DNA of 64,000 bases, from NCBI GenBank assembly GCA_031763025.1, contig JASSKH010000002.1, forward strand, positions 16,776,468 through 16,840,467, read 5' to 3'. Position numbers and translations under genes: made by a program. The notes beneath the pieces were generated by a model, which saw only the letters and a program-made list of their open reading frames with translations, was not told where the DNA came from and did not search any database. This document shows positions 1 through 34,988 of this stretch, piece by piece. The stretch is from Macrocystis pyrifera (lineage: Eukaryota; Sar; Phaeophyceae; Laminariales; Laminariaceae). Each line of letters opens with the position of its first letter. Position 1 is the first letter of the stretch.

Positions 1-62
1 GATTTGCCTATGATACGTACTACAATACATGCTCTGTCATTACGGGCATCCGCGAAACCGCA

Positions 63-80
63 GGCGGGCGTCCGCCCGCC
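63..80. repeat. Perfect GC-rich hairpin
   Basis: GGCGGGCG and CGCCCGCC form a perfect 8-bp inverted repeat with a two-base loop. The surrounding 41-100 segment (CCGCAGGCGGGC...GCGGCGAAGCCCGC) resembles two GC-rich palindromic patches near 48.1 and 48.3 kb. No function is assigned. Confidence 0.6.
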
Positions 81-112
81 GCGGCGAAGCCCGCTTGTGG
101 CTTGTGTGAATA

Positions 113-163
113 CGGCGTCATCCCACTTCCTTTAGCTTGACTGCTTATGGCGTCATCCCACTT
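113..163. repeat. Short direct repeat
   Basis: GGCGTCATCCCACTT occurs twice, about 37 bp apart, upstream of the Rep-like gene. It could be promoter-proximal, but nothing in the sequence shows that. Confidence 0.5.
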
Positions 164-930
164 GCGGAAATCTCTACAACAAAAACATTACTTCCTCTTG
201 TGCTCTTCCACCTCTCTTTACCTGGTATTATTGCAGGTCCATCCACCACCTTTTTAAGTGCCTCATATATTATTTCCGCTAAGTCGCTCACGCGTCGCCA
301 CCGCTTGTCTCTTCGCGCAGCCAGCTTGGCAACAGCAGATGAGCCAAGCCGCGAGAGTTACTTTTTCTGCCGGGTGTCTTCGCCTCTTCGACGAGGAGCC
401 GATGGGCCCTAGCGGCGACCCTGTGGAGGCTGAGACAATGTCGGACGGCGACGAGTACGAGGCGACTTTTATCGACAACCGCCCTGTGGCAGAACTGCCG
501 ACCTTCAGCGATGCAGACACGGACGTAAGTGCAACAGCTTTAGAACGGTTTAAATTTTTCATCTCTTGTATTTTGTCTTCTGTCTTCATTCAATTCTGCT
601 GAAAGACCGTTTCCATAAGAGTAAAAATATTTTACGTCGCGTGTGCGCGGGTCTTTTTTTCTCAGATTGGGCGAGTACTCCTTCGCTTCGACCCAGAACT
701 GAGACGAGATCATCTCTCTCGTCTGTATGTGTGTTACGGGTATGCCAGTATTTATTATCTCAGTTTGCTCAATTTATGCTACTGCGTTGCTCCTTTGTAC
801 CACTTTGTACCATAGTTGGTCGTCTTGTTCACACGTCCATGTTGCATTTATTAGCCGTGTTTGCTTAGTTTATACTACTACGTTGCTCCTTTGTACCTCG
901 TACTATCATATTTGCTCGAACTGTTCACAG

Positions 931-1534
931 GTCGATGTTGGAGCTCCGGTTATCTCGTCAGCGGCTGTAGCATCCGTCTCTGCCTCCTCTCCGCAGGGCC
1001 TTCAGGCCTCCGCCTCTTTAAATTCGCCCTTTCCAGTAGCTGTCCCAGCCGTCGGCAATGCTCAGGCGACCGTCGGTGCCGCCGCTACCGATGCTCAACC
1101 TGGACCCGTGACGGATGCCGAAGTGACGTACGGACCTTACCGTCGCACTATCGGCGACGGCCTACTCAGCGTGGAGTGGCCGAGATCGCCCAACGGCACT
1201 GGCAAATCCTGCTTCATCGACGATGAAGCCGGGATGCGTTACGCCTTTAGCTTCACCCTCACCTGCCTCAGCGGCCACACCGACGTCTCCTTCCAGTGGT
1301 TTGAGAAGCTAGGGCAATGCGTGCATGTCTTTTACTACCGTGCCGCGATTGGGTTGGAACGCGGCGGCGATCGTCGCGTTCTCCATGTACAAGCGGTGAT
1401 AGAGATAGGTCTGCACTGCCGCGGCGACACCACCAAGATAGCGTCCTCTCTCAGGGAGAAGCTTCGGAAGTTTTGCGGCCTCGTGGCGGCCAAGATCACA
1501 ATCAAGGAGCTCGCGACTACCCAGACTTTCGCAC
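931..1534 (+). other. Exon 2 of Rep-like gene, HUH motifs I and II
   Basis: The acceptor is TTCACAG|GTC at 929-930 and the donor is GCAC|GTTAGG at 1535. The exon is open throughout and ends in phase 1. It starts with a low-complexity Val/Ala/Ser/Gln linker. The folded part runs from about 1120 and contains motif I at 1252-1266 and motif II with the His codon at 1384-1386. An ERGGDRR stretch lies just before motif II, where Rep proteins usually carry a charged GxERG-like turn. Confidence 0.68.
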
Positions 1535-1579
1535 GTTAGGCTCTTCTCTTGTATTTTTCCTATAGGTTTTTCCTACTCA

Positions 1580-1978
1580 CACACTTTCACCTCTCCTTGT
1601 TTTGCTTTCGCGCTTGCCGGCCTCATCCTTCTCCTTGCGAAGTCAGTTCGTGCTATCTCGCTTATTATTTTCTCTTTTCCATTCGTTGTTTTTTTCGTTC
1701 TCCTTGTTGTGCATCGCACCTCTTTTGTTTTCTTTTCCATACCCTCTCGTAGTAGTGATGACCGGCTACTCCCAGAAGGGATCATGTTCGCCTCTCGTGT
1801 TGTTCTTTCGCGCTTGCCGATCTCATCCTGCTCCTAGCGAAATCATGTCGTGGCATTTTCCGTGATCCTCTTCTCATTTATTTTCCCTGTTTTTCGTTCT
1901 CCCTATTGTGCTTCGCACCTCTCTTTTTTGTTTTGTGTCCTCTATCCTCTCGCGGTCATGACCGGCTACGTCCAAAAG
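1580..1978 (+). repeat. Tandem duplication of intron end plus start of motif-III exon
   Basis: Two diverged copies of about 200 bp (roughly 1580-1785 and 1786-1978) each hold the end of intron 2 and the first codons of the motif-III exon (MTGYSQK at 1758, MTGYVQK at 1958). The first copy keeps a good acceptor (TAG at 1753-1755) but runs into duplicated intron sequence after YSQKG. The second keeps the rest of the exon, but its acceptor position reads GCGG instead of an AG, and the 80 bp before it contain no AG at all. Neither copy can make the normal splice. Confidence 0.75.
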
Positions 1979-2489
1979 GACTCCGACCGAGCGTGGTACG
2001 CCTTTGATTCTGTGGGCATTTCGCCGGAATTTGTCAGCGACGCCCGCGAGAATTACAAGCGCACGGCCAGGTGAGACTTCACACAACGGTTCAATCAGTA
2101 CTTGAGACTTGATCAACAGTTTAATTTGCAAGTTTTGCGCAACATGATCAACATTTACTTTCATATTATGAAACTGTTGCATATTACCCCGCCCTTGCTG
2201 TTGTCTTCTACTTGTTAATTTCAGCGGGTGCGTCAAGGACGAGGCATGGATCGAGGTCACCAAGAAGGCTTTCTAGGGCATCTGTCACAACAAAGTGAGG
2301 CAGGAGTTTTACCCTCTCTACATGTCTCCCGTCCAAGTCCTCAAATTCTGCATCAACAGCCGCGAGTACATCCCGCACTTCTCCTGGGTCTAGCCCACTA
2401 ACGCTCAAGGCATCCCCATTGAGAAAGCCAGGTCGCTGTGGACGTCCTATGTCTCTCCGGAGGAAGTTGAGCGTGAAGACATCTACAAC
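1956..2489 (+). other. Exons 3 and 4 of Rep-like gene, motif III and two nonsense codons
   Basis: Exon 3 (1956-2070) holds the YxxK motif, TAC at 1967-1969 and AAG at 1976-1978. It ends at CCAG|GTGAGA. Exon 4 (2225-2489) follows a TTTCAG acceptor and ends at CAAC|GTGAGT. Its reading frame is clearly protein-like (DEAWIEVTKK, FYPLYMSPVQVL, YIPHFSWV) but carries two TAG codons 39 codons apart. CAG to TAG changes would explain both, which is inference. Confidence 0.7.
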
Positions 2490-3725
2490 GTGAGTAGCGG
2501 TTTCCTATATTTTCTTTGCCCAGCCGGTATTTTTGCCACGATTCTCCCCAATTAAAAAATACATATCTAGTGCCGGTTTAGTATATTCTGATGGGGTGGT
2601 GCCTGATTTCGACGTTATGTGGGTTGTATGTGCCTCTATATTGCCGAATGAGTGCCTGATTGCCAAGCATAGTTTCGGTTACCTCGTACAGTCACGGTTA
2701 AGTAGTGCTGGTTTATGTTGAGTAGTACCGCGGTTACCCACTATAATCGGCTGCCCCCTATATTGCTATTGCCGGTCAAGTAGTGCCCACTATTATCGGT
2801 TGCCCTCTATAGTGCCGGTTAAGTAGCACTTGTTTTATATCTTGCCAATTAATTGGTGCCGCTTACCTCCCACAGTGCCTGTCACATCGCTCGTCACAAA
2901 TGGGAACAACCAGTAGTTGTGATATAGGAGTAACTGCAGTTCACTCGTTTTGTCTATTTCACAGTTACGGTACAGGTCCCTCTATAATGTCGGTTTTTAT
3001 GTCTCTCTATACATGCCTAGCCGTTTTTTTTGTCGCGATTCGCCCGAACAAGAAAATAAATACGTAACTAGTGCCGGTTTTGTATATTTCCGATGAAGCA
3101 GTGCCTGATTTCTACGCCACATTCCTATTATGCCGGTCTTGTCTGTTGCCGGTTAAGTATTAAGTGGTTGCCCACTTAGTGTCGGTTACCCCATACCTAT
3201 TATGCCGGTCTTGTCTGCTACCGATTAAGTATTGCCAGTTGCCCCATATAGTGCCGTTTTTTTGTGTTTCCGGTTGTTAACTGTAGTGCCAGTTACCCCT
3301 CAAACTAGTGCGGGTTACCCCTTACAGCGCCGGTTAACTAGTGCAGTTTTGTGTGTTGCCGGCTGAGCAGTGCTGTTTACAAACTATGGTGCCGGTTTAA
3401 GTACTTCCGGTTTCGCATCTTGACGGTTAGTACAGCCGATTACCCGTTATAGTGCCTATCAAATCTCACGTCACAAATACGAACAAACGTGGCTGTGGTA
3501 CAGCTATATATCCCACGGGTATATACCGCCACTATTACTTAGTGCCGGTTTTCATTTCCCTCTATATTGCCGGTCGAGTAGTACCGATTACCCACTATAG
3601 TGCCTGTCACATTGTTCTTCGCGAGGTGCTTACTCACGTCGTGTCCCTTCTACCTGGTATACGTGTGACGCACGTCGTGTCCCTTCTCTACGTATTCCCT
3701 ACCGTTGCCTCGCTTTCTATGACAG
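2490..3725 (+). repeat. Intron 4 of Rep-like gene, filled with a degenerate TAGTGCCGGTT repeat
   Basis: This 1236-bp intron (donor GTGAGT at 2490, acceptor GACAG at 3725) consists largely of spaced copies of the core TAGTGCCGGTT, with variants of GTTAAGTAGTGCC and TTACCCCATA between them. A second internal repeat, CACGTCGTGTCCCTTCT, occurs twice near 3636 and 3672. No coding potential is visible. Confidence 0.65.
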
Positions 3726-4127
3726 ATCTTCTTCGACACCTGCCCCGGGTCCACCTGCCAAGCGTGGGAACTCTCCGACTTGACATTCGCCGACATGACC
3801 GCTGACGGGGCGCAGTCTTATGCTTCTCGTCGCCGCGATATCCTCACCACTATGGCGGAGGCGGAGGATAACGTCGCGCGCGGCGCCGCTGGAGGCATTC
3901 CTACTACCCCTGCCACGGCGGCAACGGCCTCCCCACCTTCGCCTGGCTCTCCCGCCGAAGACACCGCCACTGCTGCAGCCGCGTCCGGTAGTTATTCCCA
4001 CGACTCGCAGATGTCGGCATTCCTGTCTGCCCTCGACACGCTCCTACTGTCTAACATTGGGATCGGCGAGGACAGCAGCCACGGCGAGGGGGGAATCCGG
4101 ACGCCTAGTTTTCTTCGCCTTCTCTGA
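3726..4127 (+). other. Last exon of Rep-like gene
   Basis: The frame enters at phase 0 from exon 4 and runs to TGA at 4125-4127. It starts with a cysteine- and tryptophan-containing segment (IFFDTCPGSTCQAWELSDLT), followed by a basic stretch (YASRRRD), a Thr/Ala/Pro/Ser-rich linker and a hydrophobic patch (FLSALDTLLL). I do not recognise a known domain in it. The low-complexity linker suggests a flexible tail. Confidence 0.6.
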
Positions 4128-5330
4128 ATTGGATAGCTGTTCGGGCAAGTTCGCCTACTTATTCTTTCATGAGAGGTCACCAACGTCTTCTTGCCATTCC
4201 GCCAGTTGTCCGTGCGGGAGGTTACGTTGGACAGTAGTGGCACCGTTAAAGAGGGGCCGGGGCGGGGAGTGTAGATTTCCTTTCCTTTCCTAAATTAGTC
4301 AGTCGTCGGTGCAACTTCCCCTGTGTATCATTCATGAGGGTACTGACGCGTTCATACCGTGGTTACTACCTACCACGCCCACGGTGGATGCGGGGGGTGG
4401 CGCGGGTTTTCTTGCGATCTTGTCGTGAAATGCTCACCCGTCGGAGTAGACACGGGAGGGGGTTCTATATTATTTTCGCTGTTGGCGTGAGTGTTAGCAC
4501 ATGTTCGTTGTTCATCTTTTTTCCGTCGTTGCCATGTGGAGAGGAGTGTTACCAATATATTTCGGACGTCTTTCTAGACCTCCTCCCCTCCTGAACGCTT
4601 TTAGTGGTCACGTGTTCATCTTGCGTAGTGATAGCAGTGTTCTCTGTTGTTTCACTATCCCGTCGAAGTGCATATTATGGATGGTGCATGTGATCCATCT
4701 GATACATCTGAGCAGTTTTACCATAAGAGTTTACTAAGTCCGTACTGCAGTACTAGAGAGATTTCTGTACAGTCCCAAAGAGTCTCACCTTGGGTCCCAG
4801 AAAGTTTTGCTTGACGTTCCCGTAGAAGTAACATGTTAGGGTGTTACGTCTGACGCTTGGTAGACAGCAACATATGTCATCATGCTAGTAAATATGCGTA
4901 TATCGATCTGGGTAAGTTAAAGTTATTGTTATTGCCCTCGATGAAATGCATTCGAGCGCTGTTCTCAGTTTGCTTGTCTCTTTTTTTGTGAAGTCGCAGG
5001 TGGAGTTGTTAAGAGTGACGGGAGAGGCCAGTCGGGACCAGCACGGACGGAACCCCAGAGTGCTGTGTTTCGCTCAGGCAGAGCGTCTACTTGTTGACTA
5101 ACGGTACCACTTGTTATAGTACTCGGCGGGGACATCTATCCAGCAGCAGCACACGAAGACGGAACGAGCACCCGCACCAGTACCACAGCAATGGGATCGA
5201 TATCATTGAGGTGTAATTAATTGGGGTCGGTTGCAGGGCTTTATAAATACAAGACTTTTGGCCAATGAAAAACGAAACCTGAACGGGGAGAGATCTCCAA
5301 CAATCAGTCAGATAGCTGACGACGCTCTCT
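4128..5330. other. No gene recognised
   Basis: The segment holds the presumed 3' flank of the Rep-like gene, including a GGGGCCGGGGCGGGG tract at about 4254-4268, and then unremarkable sequence. I see no coding region, RNA gene or clear repeat. Confidence 0.5.
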
Positions 5331-5837: not shown

Positions 5838-7115
5838 TGCCGGCGGCGTCCTACGGTATCCCCCCAAACCTGAAGAAAAACCCATTTTTTGCCTTTCGCT
5901 GCTGTAAAAGACTTGTGATAGTATGCATTTTTTTTTGCCATTCGAGACACAGCAGTAGTACTCGTAGATAATTTTGCTCTGGCACCAAAAGTAACGCACT
6001 CCTGTTGCTGTACTGTAAATACCTCCTATAGTATGCGCATGGAAACGCGAAGTACACCAAAAAAGAATTATTTCAGCTCGTGCCACGATACACGATAGAC
6101 GCTCGATCTCGACAGAGACTCAGCCCACGTACAACTCGCGCGGTGGCGGGCAAGATCAACTAAGTATAGATGACGGGCTCGAAGAAATGAGGTGGATGCA
6201 TGCTCTAGGGGGCAAGAGCTTGCCGGCGGCGTCCAACTGTATCCAAAACTGAAAAAAGCCCATTTCATTCGAGACGTTTGTTGTACTACTGATGTACTGA
6301 TAGACACAATGCATTTTTTTTGCCGTTCTGTTATGATACTGCTTGGATACAGCACTCTTCAGTACAGCAGTACTCGTCCATAATTTTGCTCTGACACAAA
6401 AAGTAACCCACTCCTGTTGTACTCTAAAAATCCTGCTATAGTATGCGAATGGAAACGCGAAGTTCACCAAAAAAGTATTATTTCAGCGGGTGCGACGATA
6501 CACGATTGACGCTCAATCTCGACAGAGACTCAGCCCACGGACAACCCGCGCGGTGGCGGGCAAGATCAACTAGTATAGATGACGGGCTCGAAGAAATGAG
6601 ATGGATGCATGCTCTAGGGGGCAAGAGCTTGCCGGCGGAGTCCAACGGTATCCTCGCAAACCTGAAAAAAAGCCCATTTTTTGCCATTCGAGACGTTTGT
6701 TGTACTGATGATGTACTGGCAGACACAATGCATTTTTTTGACATTCTGTTATGATACTGCTTGCATACAGCACTCTGCAGTACAGCAGTACTCGTCCATA
6801 ATTTTGCTCTGACACAAAAAGTAACCCACTCCTGTTGTACTCTACAAAACCTGCTATAATAGTATGCGAATGGAAACGCGAAGTTCACCAAAAAAGTATT
6901 ATTTCAGCTGGTGCGACGATACACGATAGACGCTCGATCTCGACAGAGAGGGCAACCCGCGCAGTGGCGGGCAAGATAAACTAGTATAGATGACGGGCTC
7001 GAAGAAAAGAGGTGGATGCATGCTCTAGGGGGCAAGAGCTTGCCGGCGGCGTCCTAAGGTATCCTCCCAAACCTGAAAAAAAGCCCATCTTTTGCCATTC
7101 GAGACGGATGCAGCA
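5838..7115. repeat. Tandem repeat, ~415-bp period
   Basis: Two full copies begin at 6031 and 6441 (landmark GTATGCGNATGGAAACGCGA) and a partial third starts at 6862. A partial leading copy is at 5838-6030. Shared landmarks include GGGGGCAAGAGCTTGCCGGCG and GGGCAAGATCAACTA. ORFs of about 100-137 codons on both strands simply repeat with the units and are not good gene candidates. Confidence 0.8.
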
Positions 7116-15928: not shown

Positions 15929-18593
15929 TCATCTGTGTGGGGAGAGAGTGGAGTAGTGCTTGGCATGTTGATGATATACAACATACAGGCTGTTGTTTAA
16001 AGGAAGGTTTGGGACAGGAGAGAAAGCAGCAGTGCCGGCAACGACAACGGTTATGGAAATGTTGTATAGTTGCTGGGCGGCCGCGATTTCGATGTAGTCA
16101 GCATAGGAGTTTGGATGAGACATGATATGTAAATAGTCTTCCAGGATGCCGTGTAGTAACGAGGCGGGAGGCCCAGAATGTGGATCGGTTCGCTGTTGAA
16201 CCCGTTGGATATGTGTAGGAAGAAATAATCGTGATTTTGGGAAATGTGGGAAACAATTTGTTTCCTTTCGTTCGTCCTGGATGGCGACAATCTGCTTGGC
16301 GTACTGCTTCGGAATTCCGCGAAGCCCTGGAGCAGGCGAAATGGAAGGGAGTCTTTTTGCGCTTGATGATGATGTCTCCGTCTTTGATGGTGGAGTCCGT
16401 CAGGCGGCAGTTGTAGCACTTGCCACGGACCTGGTCGAAGTAAACATATAGGGTGCGCGGGGCGGGAGTGGCGTGCAGGGAATGGCGGGGGAGGGGGAAG
16501 GGGGGGGGGGGGGGGGCAGAGTTCATTATTTGTACTACTCTACAGCGGCACAGCAACAGTACGTATTCGCTTGCTATACGACGGCAGCAGCAGCAGCAGC
16601 AGCAGAAGCAGCAAGTACGCAATTTCATTGACGATACAGAAATATGTACACACACAAGTGTAGTACAGTACACACACAAATCACGTCCAGCATGATGTCG
16701 GTACAACGCAGCAGCACCACAAAAAAATCATTGACGATACAGAAATATGTACACACGCACAAGTTTAAGTGTAATAGACACACAAATCATGTCCAGCATG
16801 ATGTACGGCAACAACGCAGCAGCGCCACAAAACGACCAGGAAACACAATTATCCGAGTACATACCAGGTACAAACATTCAGTGAATACTGCGGCAGCACT
16901 AAAAGCAGAGCAGCAGCAGCAGCAGAAGCAGCAACGGATCGCCACAGCGTTGGCAGCAGCAGCATAGCAACGATATGAAAAGAAGGGAGAAAAAATTATG
17001 TACCCCGAGGCCGTCCGAAAAGTATTTTTGGTACCACACTATAGACCCACCTGCGCATGCTGTACGGCAACAACGCAGCAGCATAGCAACATACGAAATA
17101 CGAGAAAAAGTAGTACGTACGCAAAATGCAGGAGCAAAACGACCAAAATGAATTTTTACGTATCAAAAAAACCATTTGGGTACAAAAATGGCAAAAAAAA
17201 TAATAATCCGCGTTGGCAGCAGCAGCACAGCAACGATATGAAAATAAGTATGTACCCTGGTATGCCCCAATCGCAAAACCTCCGGAATTTCATTGACGAT
17301 ACCGAAATATGTACACACACAAGTGCAGCATGATGTACGGCAACAACGCAGCAGCACTACAGCAGCAGCATAGCAACGATATATACGAAAATAACCAAGC
17401 CAAAAACGAGAAATTGCAATACGTACGCAAAATGCAGGAGCAAAACAACAAAAATATTTTTTCACGTATCAAAAGGAACCATTTGGGTACAAAAACGACC
17501 AAGAAAAACAGTGATCCGAGTACATACAAACTTTCAGTGGATATTGCGGCAGCATTAGCAGCAGCAGCATAGCAACGATATGAAAATAAGGAAGAAAAAA
17601 AGCATGCACCCTGGTGTGCCGCCATCGCAAAACCTACGGAATTGACGATCCGAAAATATGTACGCTTCCAGCATGATACACGGCAACAACGCAGCAGCAC
17701 TACATACAGCAGCAGCAAGTGCACAGGAGCAGCAGGTGCACAGCACCGCAACAACGCAGCAACACTACAGCAGCAGCGAGTGCACAGGAGAAGCAGGTGC
17801 ACAGCAGCAGCAGCACTCATGGCGTGGCGCTGACAGCAGCAGCAACAGCAGCAGCGGCAGCCGAAAACGAGCAACATGAGTACGTGGGGTCACCAAAACA
17901 TGTACACACAGAAATCGTGTGCATGCACCGAAAATGCATCACAGTAGCAGCAGCACTCACGTCGTTCGGTGCAGCGGTGACGGCGACAGCTGAATCCTCC
18001 GTTCCTTCGTTCACGTCCCGCAAACAGTTGTGCATGTGCGCGTTCGCGTGCACTGTGTGTAAGAGGAGCCGACGCAACGCACGAAGGGGAAAGACCGAGC
18101 ATGGATGAGTCAAAAAAAAAAAAACGCTTTGGCGTAGGTTTGTATGCAAAAAGGCAATTGAAAACCCCAAAAAAACGTACTGGCAACATACAGCATGCAC
18201 GATATAGACATAAGACACTCACCACTGTCAGCAGTCTCGAGGGAGTACGAGACAGTCCCTTCCTTGATCGGGCGAGCACAGAACTCGCAGTCGGTTGCCC
18301 TGTCAGGATGATCCCGCCACCACGCACGTGAGATCCTTGCAGGTGGCGAAGGCCACGTTTTTGCCACCAGGCGCGGAGTTCTTGACCAAGTGCTGGTCCG
18401 TGCACTGGTCGCAAACAACAGCCGGCACCAGGTCGGTCTTTGTCGTTGCCGCTCTCTTGCCAGAGGGCGAGGACCACGCGCCTCTCGACGAGGGGGAGGT
18501 GAGCTTAGGGGGGAGTGGAGATGGGAGAGGCGGGGGTTGCAGCACCAGCAGGTTCGCCACCGACAGCAGCAGCTTGGCCGCCGACAGCTGCAC
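15929..18593 (-). pseudogene. Zinc-finger/OTU-like gene, copy 2, decayed
   Basis: Exon 1 spans 18593-18223 and begins GTGCAGCTG where copy 1 has ATG. Exon 2 spans 18052-17961 (92 nt) with an intact CACACAG acceptor and GAC|GTGAGT donor. Exon 3 starts at 16430. Splice phases agree: exon 1 ends in phase 1, exon 2 ends in phase 0. Zinc-binding candidates are VVCDQC, ATCKDLTC, CEFC with HMHNC across the exon 1/2 junction, and CYNC with HFAC in exon 3. The frame between KDLTC and WWRDHP is broken by an indel, and another break lies after HFAC. The OTU-like part reads SYADYIEIAAAQQL... to HAKHYS and stops at 15929. Confidence 0.58.
16500..16516. repeat. G17 homopolymer
   Basis: Equivalent of the G19 and G22 runs in units 1 and 3, just upstream (gene sense) of exon 3. 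Confidence 0.85.
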
Positions 18594-19052: not shown

Positions 19053-20055
19053 CTAATAATAAGAATAACATATTTCCATCAGTGTGGGGAGAGAGTAGTG
19101 CTTGGCATGTTGATGATATACAACATACAGGCTGTTGTTTAAAGGAAGGTTTGGGACAGGAGAGAAAGCAGCAGTGCCGGCAACGACAACGGTTATGGAA
19201 ATGTTGTATAGTTGCTGGGCGGCCGCGATTTCGATGTAGCCAGCATAGGAGTTTGGATGAGACATGATATGTAAATAGTCTTCCAGGATACTGTAGTAAC
19301 GAGGCGGGAGGCCCAGAATGTGGATCTGTTCGCTGTTGAACCCGTTGGATATGTGTAGGAAGAAATAATCGTGATTTTGGGAAATGTGGGAAACAATTTG
19401 TTTCCTTTCGTTCGTCCTGGATGGCGACAATCTGCTTGGCGTACTGCTTCGGAATTCCGCGAAGCCCTGGAGCAGGCGAAATGGAAGGGAGTCTTTTTGC
19501 GCTTGATGATGATGTTTCCGTCTTTGATGGTGGAGTCCGTCAGGCGGCAGTTGTAGCACTTGCCACGGATCTGGTCGAAGTAAACATATAGGGTGCGCGG
19601 GGCGGGAGTGGCGTGCAGGGAATGGCGGGGGAGGGGGAAGGGGGGGGGGGGGGGGGGGGGGCAGAGTTCATTATTTGTACTACTCTACAGCGGCACAACA
19701 GCAGTACGTATTCGCTTGCTATACGACGGCAGCAGCAGCAGCAGCAACAGAAGCAGCAAGTACGCAATTTCATTGACGATACAGAAATATGTACACACAC
19801 AAGTGTAGTACAGTACACACACAAATCACGTCCAGCATGATGTCGGGCAACAACGCAGCAGCACCACAAAAAAAAATCATTGACGATACAGAAATATGTA
19901 CACACGGACAAGTTTAAGTGTAATAGACACACAAATCATGTCCAGCATGATGTACGGCAACAACGCAGCAGCGCCACAAAACGACCAGGAAACACAATTA
20001 TCCGAGTACATACCAGGTACAAACATTCAGTGAATATTGCGGCAGCACTAAAAGC

Positions 20056-20099
<44 letters not shown>

Positions 20100-21854
20100 G
20101 GATCGCCACAGCGTTGGCAGCAGCAGCATAGCAACGATATGAAAAGAAGGGAGAAAAAAAGTATGTACCCCGAGGCCGTCCGAAAAACATTTTTGGTACC
20201 ACACTATAGACCCACCTCCGCATGCTGTACGGCAACAACACAGCAGCAGCATAGCAACATACGAAATACGAGAAAAAGTAGTACGTACGCAAAATGCAGG
20301 AGCAAAACGACCAAAATATTATTTTTACGTATCAAAAAAACCATTTGGGTACAAAAATGGCCAATAAAAACAATAATCCGCGTTGGCAGCAGCAGCACAG
20401 CAACGATATGAAAATAAGGAAGAAAAAAAGTGTGTACCCTGGTATGCCCCAATCGCAAAACCTCCGGAATTTCATTGACGATACCGAAATATGTACACAC
20501 ACAAGTGCAGCATGATGTACGGCAACAACGCAGCAGCACCACAGCAGCAGCATAGCAACGATATATACGAAAATAACCAAGCCAAAAACGAGAAATTGCA
20601 ATACGTACGCAAAATGCAGGAGCAAAACGACAAAAATATTTTTTCACGTATCAAAAGGAACCATTTGGGTACAAAAACGACCAAGAAAAACAATATTCCG
20701 AGTACATACGAATATTCAGTGGATATTGCGGCAGCATTAGCAGCAGCAGCAGCAGAACCAGCTACAGCATTAGCAGCAGCAGAAGCTGCAACGAATCGCC
20801 GCAGCGTTGGCAGCAGCAGCAGCAGCAGCATAGCAACGATATGAAAATAAGGAAGAAAAAAAGCATGTACCCTGGTATGCCGCCATCGCAAAACCTACGG
20901 AATTGACGATCCGAAAATATGTACGCTTCCAGCATGATGCACGGCAACAACGCAGCAGCACTACATACAGCAGCAGCAAGTGCACAGGAGCAGCAGGTGC
21001 ACAGCACCGCAACAACGCAGCAACACTACAGCAGCAGCGAGTGCACAGGAGAAGCAGGTGCACAGCAGCAGCAGCACTCATGGCGTGGCGCTGACAGCAG
21101 CAGCAGCAGCAGCAGCGGCAGCCGAAAACGAGCAACATGAGTACGTGGGGTCACCAAAACATGTACACACAGAAATCGTGTGCATGCACCGAAAATGCAC
21201 CACAGTAGCAGCAGCACTCACGTCGTTCGGTGCAGCGGTGACGGCGACAGCTGAATCCTCCGTTCCTTCGTTCACGTCCCGCAAACAGTTGTGCATGTGC
21301 GCGTTCGCGTGCACTGTGTGTAAGAGGAGCCGACGCAACGCACGAAGGGGAAAGACCGAGCATGGATGAGTCAAAAAAAAATAAACGCTTTGGCGAAGGT
21401 TTGTATGCAAAAAGGCAATTGAAAACCCCAAAAAAAACGTACTGGCAACATACAGCATGCACGATATAGACATAAGACACTCACCACTGTCAGCAGTCTC
21501 GAGGGAGTACGAGACAGTCCCTTCCTTGATCGGGCGAGCACAGAACTCGCAGTCGGTTGCCCTGTCAGGATGATCCCGCCACCACGCACGTGAGATCCTT
21601 GCAGGTGGCGAAGGCCACGTTTTTGCCACCAGGCGCGGAGTTCTTGACCAAGTGCTGGTCCGTGCACTGGTCGCAAACAACAGCCGGCACCAGGTCGGTC
21701 TTTGTCGTTGCCGCTCTCTTGCCAGAGGGCGAGGACCACGCGCCTCTCGACGAGGGGGAGGTGAGCTTAGGGGGCGTGGCGAAGGGAGAGGCTGGGGTTG
21801 CAGCACCAGCAGGTTCGCCACCGACAGCAGCAGCTTGGCCGCCGACAGCTGCAC
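19053..21854 (-). pseudogene. Zinc-finger/OTU-like gene, copy 3, best preserved
   Basis: Exon 1 is 21854-21485, exon 2 is 21313-21222 and exon 3 starts at 19570, with intact GT/AG borders and matching phases. The first exon codes for a hydrophobic N-terminus (LSAAKLLLSVANLLVLQ), which could be a signal or membrane anchor. It is followed by a Pro-rich stretch, a Lys/Arg patch and the cysteine motifs. The OTU-like frame is open from NHDYFFLHISNGFN through LEDYLHIMSHPNSYAG, IEIAAAQQLYNISITVVV and HAKHYS to the stop at 19053. Frame breaks remain after KDLTC and after HFAC, as in copy 2. If OTU-like, the protein would be a deubiquitinase-type cysteine protease, but no catalytic cysteine block is visible. 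Confidence 0.58.
19640..19661. repeat. G22 homopolymer
   Basis: Longest of the three homologous G runs (19, 17, 22), so the tract has been gaining or losing bases between units. Confidence 0.85.
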
Positions 21855-22640: not shown

Positions 22641-24644
22641 TAGGCATGTTCTACTCCTTAGTCTGCCCGGTACCTTGCTACCCTGTCTGCCATCTCCTTC
22701 CTACTTTCGTCCACTGCAGTTTCCCTTCTACTCCTCTCCCCCCCCCTCTCCGCATTCCCTTGGTCGGGTTTTCTGCTTCTCCTCTTGTTGTCCCTCCTCC
22801 CCCCATTCCTTTGGACACCACCCACGGCGGATGCGCGGCGCTGCCTACTCAGCTCAGCCTCAGCCTCGTGCCACCTCACCATGAACCGTTCGGCTGCTTC
22901 GAGGATCCCCCGGTACCACTTCCCCGCCTTTTTTGCAGCAGTGGGCCACAGCGCGGTCTCAACTCCAAACACCAAGGGAGCAAGCTCCGTTGACCCTGCG
23001 GTGGCTCGGAACTCCCTAAGGTCTTCGACTATGCATCTATGCCGAGACATAACCTGTCCGCCAGGTCTCGGATTCTTCCCACCAGCAATCGTCCCGAACA
23101 TTACCCGACTGGGTAATCGATCCTTGCTTTGCCGTGCCACCCCCCCCGCGAAGAAGAGACGCCGTTTGCGGATGGTCGTTTCGATGCTCTCGCAACATGT
23201 CATCTTGAGGGCCTTCGCGTACGAGAGGGTTGTATGGTCAGTACGAAGTCGGCGCTGGAAGCCAATGACTCGCAACAGGACTTGGTGGTGAGCCGTTCGA
23301 AGCTTGGCAAAGTGTTCCGCTCTGAGGAGTCCCACACCCGTACAGCAGGGTCTCAATCACCTCGGCCTTCAGCATTCGGACTTTCAGGCTAAGGGGGGCG
23401 GTCGTCCTATTATACAGCTCCGGGCCGAACCGTTTGAGGCATGCTCGCATGAGACGGATCCGTCGGTCGATTTCGAGCGAGAGGTCAGCGTTTTCGTGGA
23501 TAATGCCGTCTAGGTATAAGAACTGGGCCGTCTGCTTATACCTCTGGCCTGCTGCTTCGATAACGAGCGGTGGTGCGAGAGTTTTCTGGTCTGGCGTTTG
23601 GAGAAGCATAGTTTCTGCCTTCTTTTCCGACGCCGTAAGGCCTGCTGCTTCGAAGACAGTTACGATGACTGTCATCATTTTCGCGAGCCCTTCAGCCGAC
23701 TTCGAGACAATCCCTGCGTCATCGGCGTACAACATGCCCCATACAGCCCTTCGCACGCACGCCAACGGCTCCTGCTCCTCCGTTCCGACTACTCCAGCAT
23801 CACTGAGTTGGACCAAATCCCTTACGATGGCTTCGTCATGGCTAAAGCGTACTATTAATAGTACGACGTGCAACACAGCAGCGAAGAATACGTTGAACAG
23901 TAACGGTGACAGCACACAGCCTTGCCGCAGCCCCTGCGTGACATCAAACCATTCCGAGTGCTCGCCGTCATCCGTACGCACGCGAGCCCGTATGCCATCG
24001 TGGAAATTACGTATAATTCTCAGCATCTTGGTTGGTACGCCAAAACGTGTGAGTACTTCCCATAACAGCTCTCGGTCGACAGAGTCGTACGCTTTCTGCA
24101 GATCGATGAAGCACAAGTACGGGGAGATTTTCCTCTGTCTTCCAAGCTCTTGCAACCGACGCACGACGAACAACATATCAATCGTTGATCGTGCGGGGCG
24201 GAAGCCGCACTGTTCCTCCGGGAGTAATTCCTCGGTCTCGCAGTAGTTGCTGAGGCGGGACGCGACGATTTTCAACTAAACTTTGCCTGTGTGGGCAACA
24301 AGCGACATCCCTCTGTAGTTGTTGCAATCAGTTCGGTCCTTCTTTTTGTGAAGGACCTTGATGATCGCATCTCACCATTGCTGGGGGACTTCTCCTGTTA
24401 CCCAAAAATTGATAAGGATGTTGTGAACGCACTGGGCGAATGCGGGGTCCTCGATTTTCAGGAGTTCGGCCGGGAGACCATCTGGCCCGACAGCCTTCCA
24501 GTTTGACATCCCCTTAAGTGCTTCCGTCATCTCGTCCATGGATGGTTCGTCTCCGAGCGACAGATTAAGCGGCCGTGGTGGCAAGAGGTCGATGATCGTT
24601 GGATCGAGTTTAAGCGATTTCGTGTTCAAAAGTTTGTGGTAAAG

Positions 24645-34029: not shown

Positions 34030-34988
34030 ACGCATGAACAGTACCCTCCCTCGTCCACGCCAATGCGTGGATAATACCTTTCCTCGTTCACGCGAATGCA
34101 TGGATAGTATCCACCCTCGTCCATGCCGGCTTATGGACAGTACCTTCGTCCGCGCCCGTGCATGGGTAGTACCCTCGCCCATGCCGGTGCAGGAATCGTA
34201 CCTTCGTATATGCCGGTGCATGGATACTACCCTCGTCCATGCCGGTACATGGATAATACCCTGTCCATGCTGGTGCATGGAGAGTACCATCGCCCATGCC
34301 GGTCCATGGATAGTACTCTCGTCCATGCCGGCGCATGGATAGTACCCTCGTCCATGCCGGTGCATGGATCGTACCCTCGCCCATGCCGGTGCATGGATAG
34401 TACCCTCGTCCATGCAAGTACATTGGATAGTACCCACTCTCTTCCACGCCGGTGCATGGACAGTATCCTCGTCCATGCGGGTGCATCGATAGTACCCTCG
34501 TCCATGCCGGTGCATGGATAGATCCCGCGTCCATGTCGGTGCATGGATAGTACCCGCGTCCATGACGGTGCATGGATAGTACCCTCGTCCATGCTGGTGC
34601 ATGGATCGTACCCTCGCCGATGCCGGTGCAAGGATAGAACCCTCGCCCATGCCGGTGCATGGCTAATATTCTCACCGACGCCGGTGCGTGGAAAATACTC
34701 GTCCATGCCGGTGCACGGATAAAACCCTCGCGGATGCCGGTGCATGGATAGTACCCTCGTACATGCCGGTGCATGGATCGTACCCTCGTTCCTGCCGGTG
34801 CATGGATAGCACCCTCGTCCATGCAAGTATATGGATAGTAACCTCCTCCATGCCGGTGCATGGATAGTACCCTCGTCCATAGCGTTGATTGGGAAATACC
34901 CTCGTCCATGCCGGTGCATATAGTACCCTCGTCCATGCCGGTACATGGATAATACCCTTGTCCATGCCGGTGCATGCATAGTACCCAC
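34030..34988. repeat. 29-bp minisatellite, about 32 units
   Basis: The core unit is GTGCATGGATAGTACCCTCG followed by TCCATGCCG. Each unit holds a hairpin, TCCATGC-CGGT-GCATGGA. Because 29 is not divisible by 3, the encoded peptide repeats every 29 residues. All three - strand frames stay open for long stretches, giving overlapping ORFs of 242-295 codons. These are best read as by-products of the array. Confidence 0.9.

Follow-up and report, generated by a model that had tools for sequence, protein, structure and literature searches.

A spliced, decayed gene in a brown alga in or near the kelps very probably encoded a Replitron transposase

The window, the whole stretch of 64,000 nucleotides analyzed here, very probably carries a decayed copy of a Replitron transposase gene belonging to a brown alga in or near the kelps (Laminariales). 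The joined exons 2 (from the HUH part on) to 4 matched Replitron_HUH (PF21859) with 60.1 bits (E 3.6e-16, profile positions 7-128 of 128, curated cut-off 28.5 bits) and Replitron_C (PF21860) with 27.7 bits over profile positions 6-72 of 77, with X placed at two stops and a narrow margin over the cut-off of 27. No Pfam family besides these two reached E 1 in the joined exons. Since both domains score above their curated cut-offs, the gene is assigned to the Replitrons and not to a new transposon class; the earlier note had named Replitrons without placing the gene among them, and its suggestion of a possibly distinct class is not upheld. When the exons were scanned one by one, exon 2 matched PF21859 with 30.1 bits (profile 7-93), the exon 3 piece matched profile positions 94-128 of the same family with 16.6 bits, and one of the two exon 4 pieces matched PF21860 with 16.1 bits, each below the cut-off of its family, while exon 5 and the remaining exon 4 piece had no Pfam match. 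The change from profile position 93 to 94 coincides with the predicted splice of intron 2. As read from the sequence, the match to the HUH domain is well beyond chance.

The three motifs described in the earlier note were recovered on the joined exons in the same order and spacing, with FTLTC (motif I, 1252-1266) and HVQ (1384-1392) in exon 2 and the tyrosine motif YVQK (1967-1978) in exon 3, all on the forward strand, at residues 170, 214, and 268 of the first gene model and thus 44 and 54 residues apart. Loss of these motifs among homologues had been named as counterevidence, and they were largely retained. Across alignment A3, with 10 rows, the H and Q of HVQ never varied, while motif I varied at its last residues, and the tyrosine was kept in 10 of 11 genomic copies (YVQK in nine, YVHK in one, and FFQK in one). 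In order and look, the motifs resemble motifs I to III of Rep proteins from CRESS-DNA viruses and plasmids, as would be expected of an endogenized viral or plasmid Rep gene. This origin nevertheless has a vanishingly small probability, given that no viral Rep or helicase family matched in Pfam at E up to 1, that the gene is interrupted by several introns and lies in a dispersed 8-kb repeat with common ends, and that none of 26 pattern matches in viral contigs was confirmed as a relative. A fragment of a Helitron is just as improbable. In a passage of a plant review (PMC10741241), Helitrons are described as HUH transposons of eukaryotes that lack terminal inverted repeats, and the element studied here is likewise a eukaryotic HUH transposon with no clear inverted repeats at its ends; unlike them, it has a single tyrosine in the motif and no helicase or Helitron Pfam domain in the gene or in seven further frames of the element that were scanned, in agreement with the earlier observation that a helicase is lacking.

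If a working copy acted as other members of the HUH superfamily do, its histidine motif would bind a metal ion, and the tyrosine would nick one DNA strand at the end of the element and stay joined to the 5' phosphate. The freed single strand would then pass to a new site, and host enzymes would remake the other strand. The exon 2 part was modelled twice with AlphaFold2, both times with low confidence (mean pLDDT 43.0 and 58.7) and with the tyrosine helix outside the folded part. In these models, the order of strand-strand-helix-strand-helix-strand, of equally low confidence, would presumably fit an HUH domain minus the tyrosine helix. A Foldseek search with the second model (pLDDT 58.7, without the tyrosine helix) returned 613 matches within E 10. 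None of them reached 0.001 or better, and the best 50 of the 613 matches to this low-confidence model included nothing annotated as an HUH enzyme. A sequence search of the PDB gave two weak rows, both unrelated.

The five exons of the window join on the forward strand with agreeing phases (0, 1, 2, and 0 at the four joins), as the earlier note had proposed. The exon at 339..524, counted there as exon 1 and probably the third of the gene, contains an acidic stretch and matches the protein P0004. It is followed by intron 1 (525..930, phase 0, GT-AG, from splice sites in the 11 copies, that of the window included) and by exon 2 (931..1534), which carries the first part of the HUH domain and is covered by PF21859 and by the relatives P0001 to P0003. 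Intron 2 (1535..1955, phase 1, from splice comparison of 11 copies) precedes exon 3 (1956..2070), with the tyrosine motif and the end of the HUH domain (PF21859 profile 94-128), and intron 3 (2071..2224, phase 2, GT-AG), whose join agrees with the Undaria gene model P0004, leads to exon 4 (2225..2489) with the Replitron C-terminal domain PF21860. Intron 4 (2490..3725, phase 0, GT-AG, from splice comparison) contains many short diverged repeats of the kind TAGTGCCGGTT. Exon 5 (3726..4127) encodes a Cys/Trp-containing tail matching P0004, P0005, and P0006, although after GEDSSHGEG the last residues of the gene model diverge from P0004 and P0006.

Splice sites were compared among those of the 11 copies that have bases at the site in question. 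Donor 1 was GT and acceptor 1 AG in 10 of 11 copies each, donor 2 was GT in 9/11 and acceptor 2 AG in 8/11, donor 3 was GT in 9/10 and acceptor 3 AG in 10/10, and donor 4 was GT in 10/10 and acceptor 4 AG in 7/9. Of the four introns claimed for the window, introns 1, 3, and 4 stand as GT-AG introns, whereas intron 2 reads GT...GG here, its acceptor being lost. This lost acceptor and two in-frame stops in exon 4 (2274-2276 and 2391-2393) support the pseudogene status suggested before, and the window copy as it stands should not make a working enzyme. Coding through intron 1 was considered and rejected: no stop interrupts the frame 703-1539, and P0001 likewise continues across this region, but the resemblance to P0001, judged by eye, falls in two different frames of the window, so that an intron fits better.

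Two of the splice ends lie in tandem duplications. A 95-bp duplication found by self-comparison (750-844 and 846-940, forward strand) covers the 3' splice site of intron 1. A second one of about 200 bp on the same strand (1586..1979, with halves 1586-1779 and 1787-1979 about 75% identical) takes in the acceptor of intron 2 and the start of exon 3, which accounts for a second Y-x-Q-K-like stretch inside intron 2. In the window, the first half of this duplication retains TAG where the second half has GG. The halves cross-match in other copies as well, indicating that the duplications predate the divergence of the copies.

Relatives were found only within the Laminariales where a species was given (P0004 from Undaria, P0003 and P0005 from Laminaria digitata). 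The exon 2 search of about 5.8 billion proteins returned three relatives, P0001 (79% identical), P0002 (65%), and P0003 (65%); the joined-peptide search, in which 7993 candidates sharing most words were scored, returned three proteins, among them P0004 and P0005; and the profile search, with 7995 scored, returned five relatives. All five proteins from P0001 to P0005 matched PF21859 at E up to 0.1, two of them above the cut-off, and P0004 and P0005 matched PF21860, both below the cut-off. The joins at introns 2, 3, and 4 are identical in P0004. This model skips most of exon 2, including motif I and HVQ, and is therefore uninformative on intron 1 and does not represent an intact enzyme, so that among these relatives no complete intact one was seen.

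P0004 also extends the gene beyond the window. Its residues 59-186 match an open frame at about -1822 to -1370 (71/128 identical), and its residues 187-281 align first with a short exon that begins upstream, at about -674, and then with the exon at 339 (47/98 identical). In Pfam, neither of the two upstream frames matched any family at E up to 1. Because AG directly precedes 339 in 11/11 copies and P0004 continues into sequence upstream of the window, position 339 probably marks an exon edge inside the gene instead of the gene start for which it had been taken. The gene most likely comprises about seven exons and about six introns, counting two introns upstream of the window; the donor ends of the upstream exons are uncertain.

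Within its own genome (537 Mb, 223 contigs), the domain was detected in 17 rows, which fall at 13 places. Eleven copies, that of the window included, were compared, and the weak places on C219 and C196 were left out of the copy counts. In the gene region, the other ten copies are 84.4 to 92.4% identical to the window copy. Two copies on C223, at about 9249284 (+) and 9255100 (-), face each other within about 6 kb, and the one on the plus strand matches the window only to about 1994, inside exon 3. The search for intact homologues in the same genome that the earlier note had proposed yielded copies, and all 11 compared are damaged. Read as aligned, 10 of them carry one or more stops upstream of the last exon, some due to frame-shifting length changes; stops in the last exon were not scored as damage since it includes the end codon. 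The eleventh, c223_9.2551, is free of stops upstream of the last exon, yet its acceptor 4 is lost and its exons 1 and 2 differ in length from the window reading. Dispersed damaged copies with mostly conserved exon edges support the view of a long-resident, eukaryotic, intron-bearing HUH gene.

Over the 55 copy pairs, which are not independent, the differences amounted to 8.2% at codon position 1 (2077/25212 sites), 7.7% at position 2 (1955/25272), 11.6% at position 3 (2917/25131), and 10.8% in introns (8262/76452), with exon 5 taken to 4090 and parts of the introns compared. In pairs with the window copy, position 3 differed most in 8 of 10, the exceptions being c204 and c223_9.2493. Exon edges that are mostly kept, together with positions 1 and 2 that are less diverged than position 3 or the introns, argue that the spliced frame was once under selection and suggest that selection for the protein came first and decay later. 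Such a trace of purifying selection would also fit a Replitron-derived host gene formerly kept for a cellular role, but this is extremely unlikely with damage in every copy and with copies dispersed through the genome.

The part of the Replitron copy inside the window covers 1..4838 on the forward strand, as delimited by blastn against the ten other copies. Its 5' end lies about 2037 bases upstream of the window, where similarity starts at -2037/-2038 in three copies, and c190, as a fourth, is similar over the first 95 bases at this edge. At the 3' side, similarity stops at 4838 in c190, c191, c202, c204, and c223_9.2551, at 4850 in c200_10.63, and earlier in the other four. The six copies with an edge at 4838 or 4850 continue together past the stop of the window copy, which by this comparison is 3'-truncated at 4838. 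A shared end, ...CTCCTCAACCA, follows 1.4 to 1.6 kb further on in c190, c200_10.63, c202, and c223_9.2551, and in c204 and c200_11.86 the similarity ends within some tens of bases of it; the 3' end of the element gave 12 matching rows in the genome. The fullest copy, c200_10.63, spans 8385 bases (8.4 kb) between the 5' and 3' ends. In this copy, the last ~410 bases of the element occur twice in tandem at the 3' end (C200, about 10632540-10633141). Near the beginning of the window, about 114 bases (63-176) containing GCGTCATCCCACTT twice are absent from c223_9.2493, c195, and c202.

The repeated element ends sought around the copies were thus found as common 5' and 3' ends, but not as clear terminal repeats: no clear terminal or inverted repeat was seen at the element ends. 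A 9-base stretch, CAGGCATTT, occurs close to each end of c200_10.63 and is a candidate repeat only, and at the ends of c190 the longest exact share is 5 bases, with the CAGGCATTT stretch present with one mismatch. No target-site duplication was found in four end pairs from three copies, the longest shares being 4 to 5 bases, which 209 to 299 of 300 shuffles equalled.

Other features were observed elsewhere in the window. An open frame of 345 residues at 23241-24275 on the minus strand matched the reverse transcriptase family RVT_1 with 98.8 bits and is a retroelement remnant. A tandem array with a 411-base unit in 2.8 copies (5953-7106) begins some 1.1 kb past the point where the Replitron copy ends, and a repeat scan of 1-40000 found a minisatellite with a 29-base unit in about 30 copies (34113-34986). 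The units of the arrays at 16625-16832 and 17679-17806 recur about 3.1 to 3.3 kb further on, at 19770-19981 and 20939-21067, which suggests a larger duplicated segment. ARAGORN detected no tRNA genes in the window.

Replitrons are an already described group of transposons, with Craig (2023, PNAS 120:e2301424120) as the primary paper. In the passage of the plant review, they are given a length of 0.9-4 kb, direct repeats of 5-11 bp at their ends, target-site duplications of 2-8 bp, and an occurrence in green algae and several groups of seedless land plants (PMC10741241); they are also treated in a second article (PMC13231165). The kelp element resembles them in the succession of PF21859 and PF21860, in having no helicase that was found, and in its dispersed copies in a eukaryotic genome. 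It differs in reaching 8.4 kb against the range quoted in that passage, in showing only the candidate CAGGCATTT where the direct repeats quoted there would be, and perhaps in its N-terminal exons, which have no Pfam match. These same differences, along with the target-site duplications not found at the ends examined, would be the grounds for placing the element in an undescribed class of its own among eukaryotic HUH transposons. That reading is very unlikely with both Replitron domains above cut-off, in order, and over most of each profile, and no new transposon class is opened by the kelp element. Within the Replitrons, the chances are about even that kelps harbor a separate subfamily. Its elements would be long, reaching 8.4 kb in the fullest copy, their gene would have some seven exons and encode an additional conserved N-terminal domain, and its splice sites would have been tandemly duplicated along with the intron ends.

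No report of Replitrons in Phaeophyceae or of HUH transposons in brown algae was found in the literature searched, which mostly excluded subscription papers, so that prior publication is possible. The assignment of the gene to the Replitrons places this family in brown algae near the kelps, beyond the groups listed in the review passage (PMC10741241), and adds a long multi-exon form whose N-terminal part has no Pfam match. It would also aid the annotation of kelp genomes, in which the core of the HUH domain can be missed, as in the Undaria gene model.
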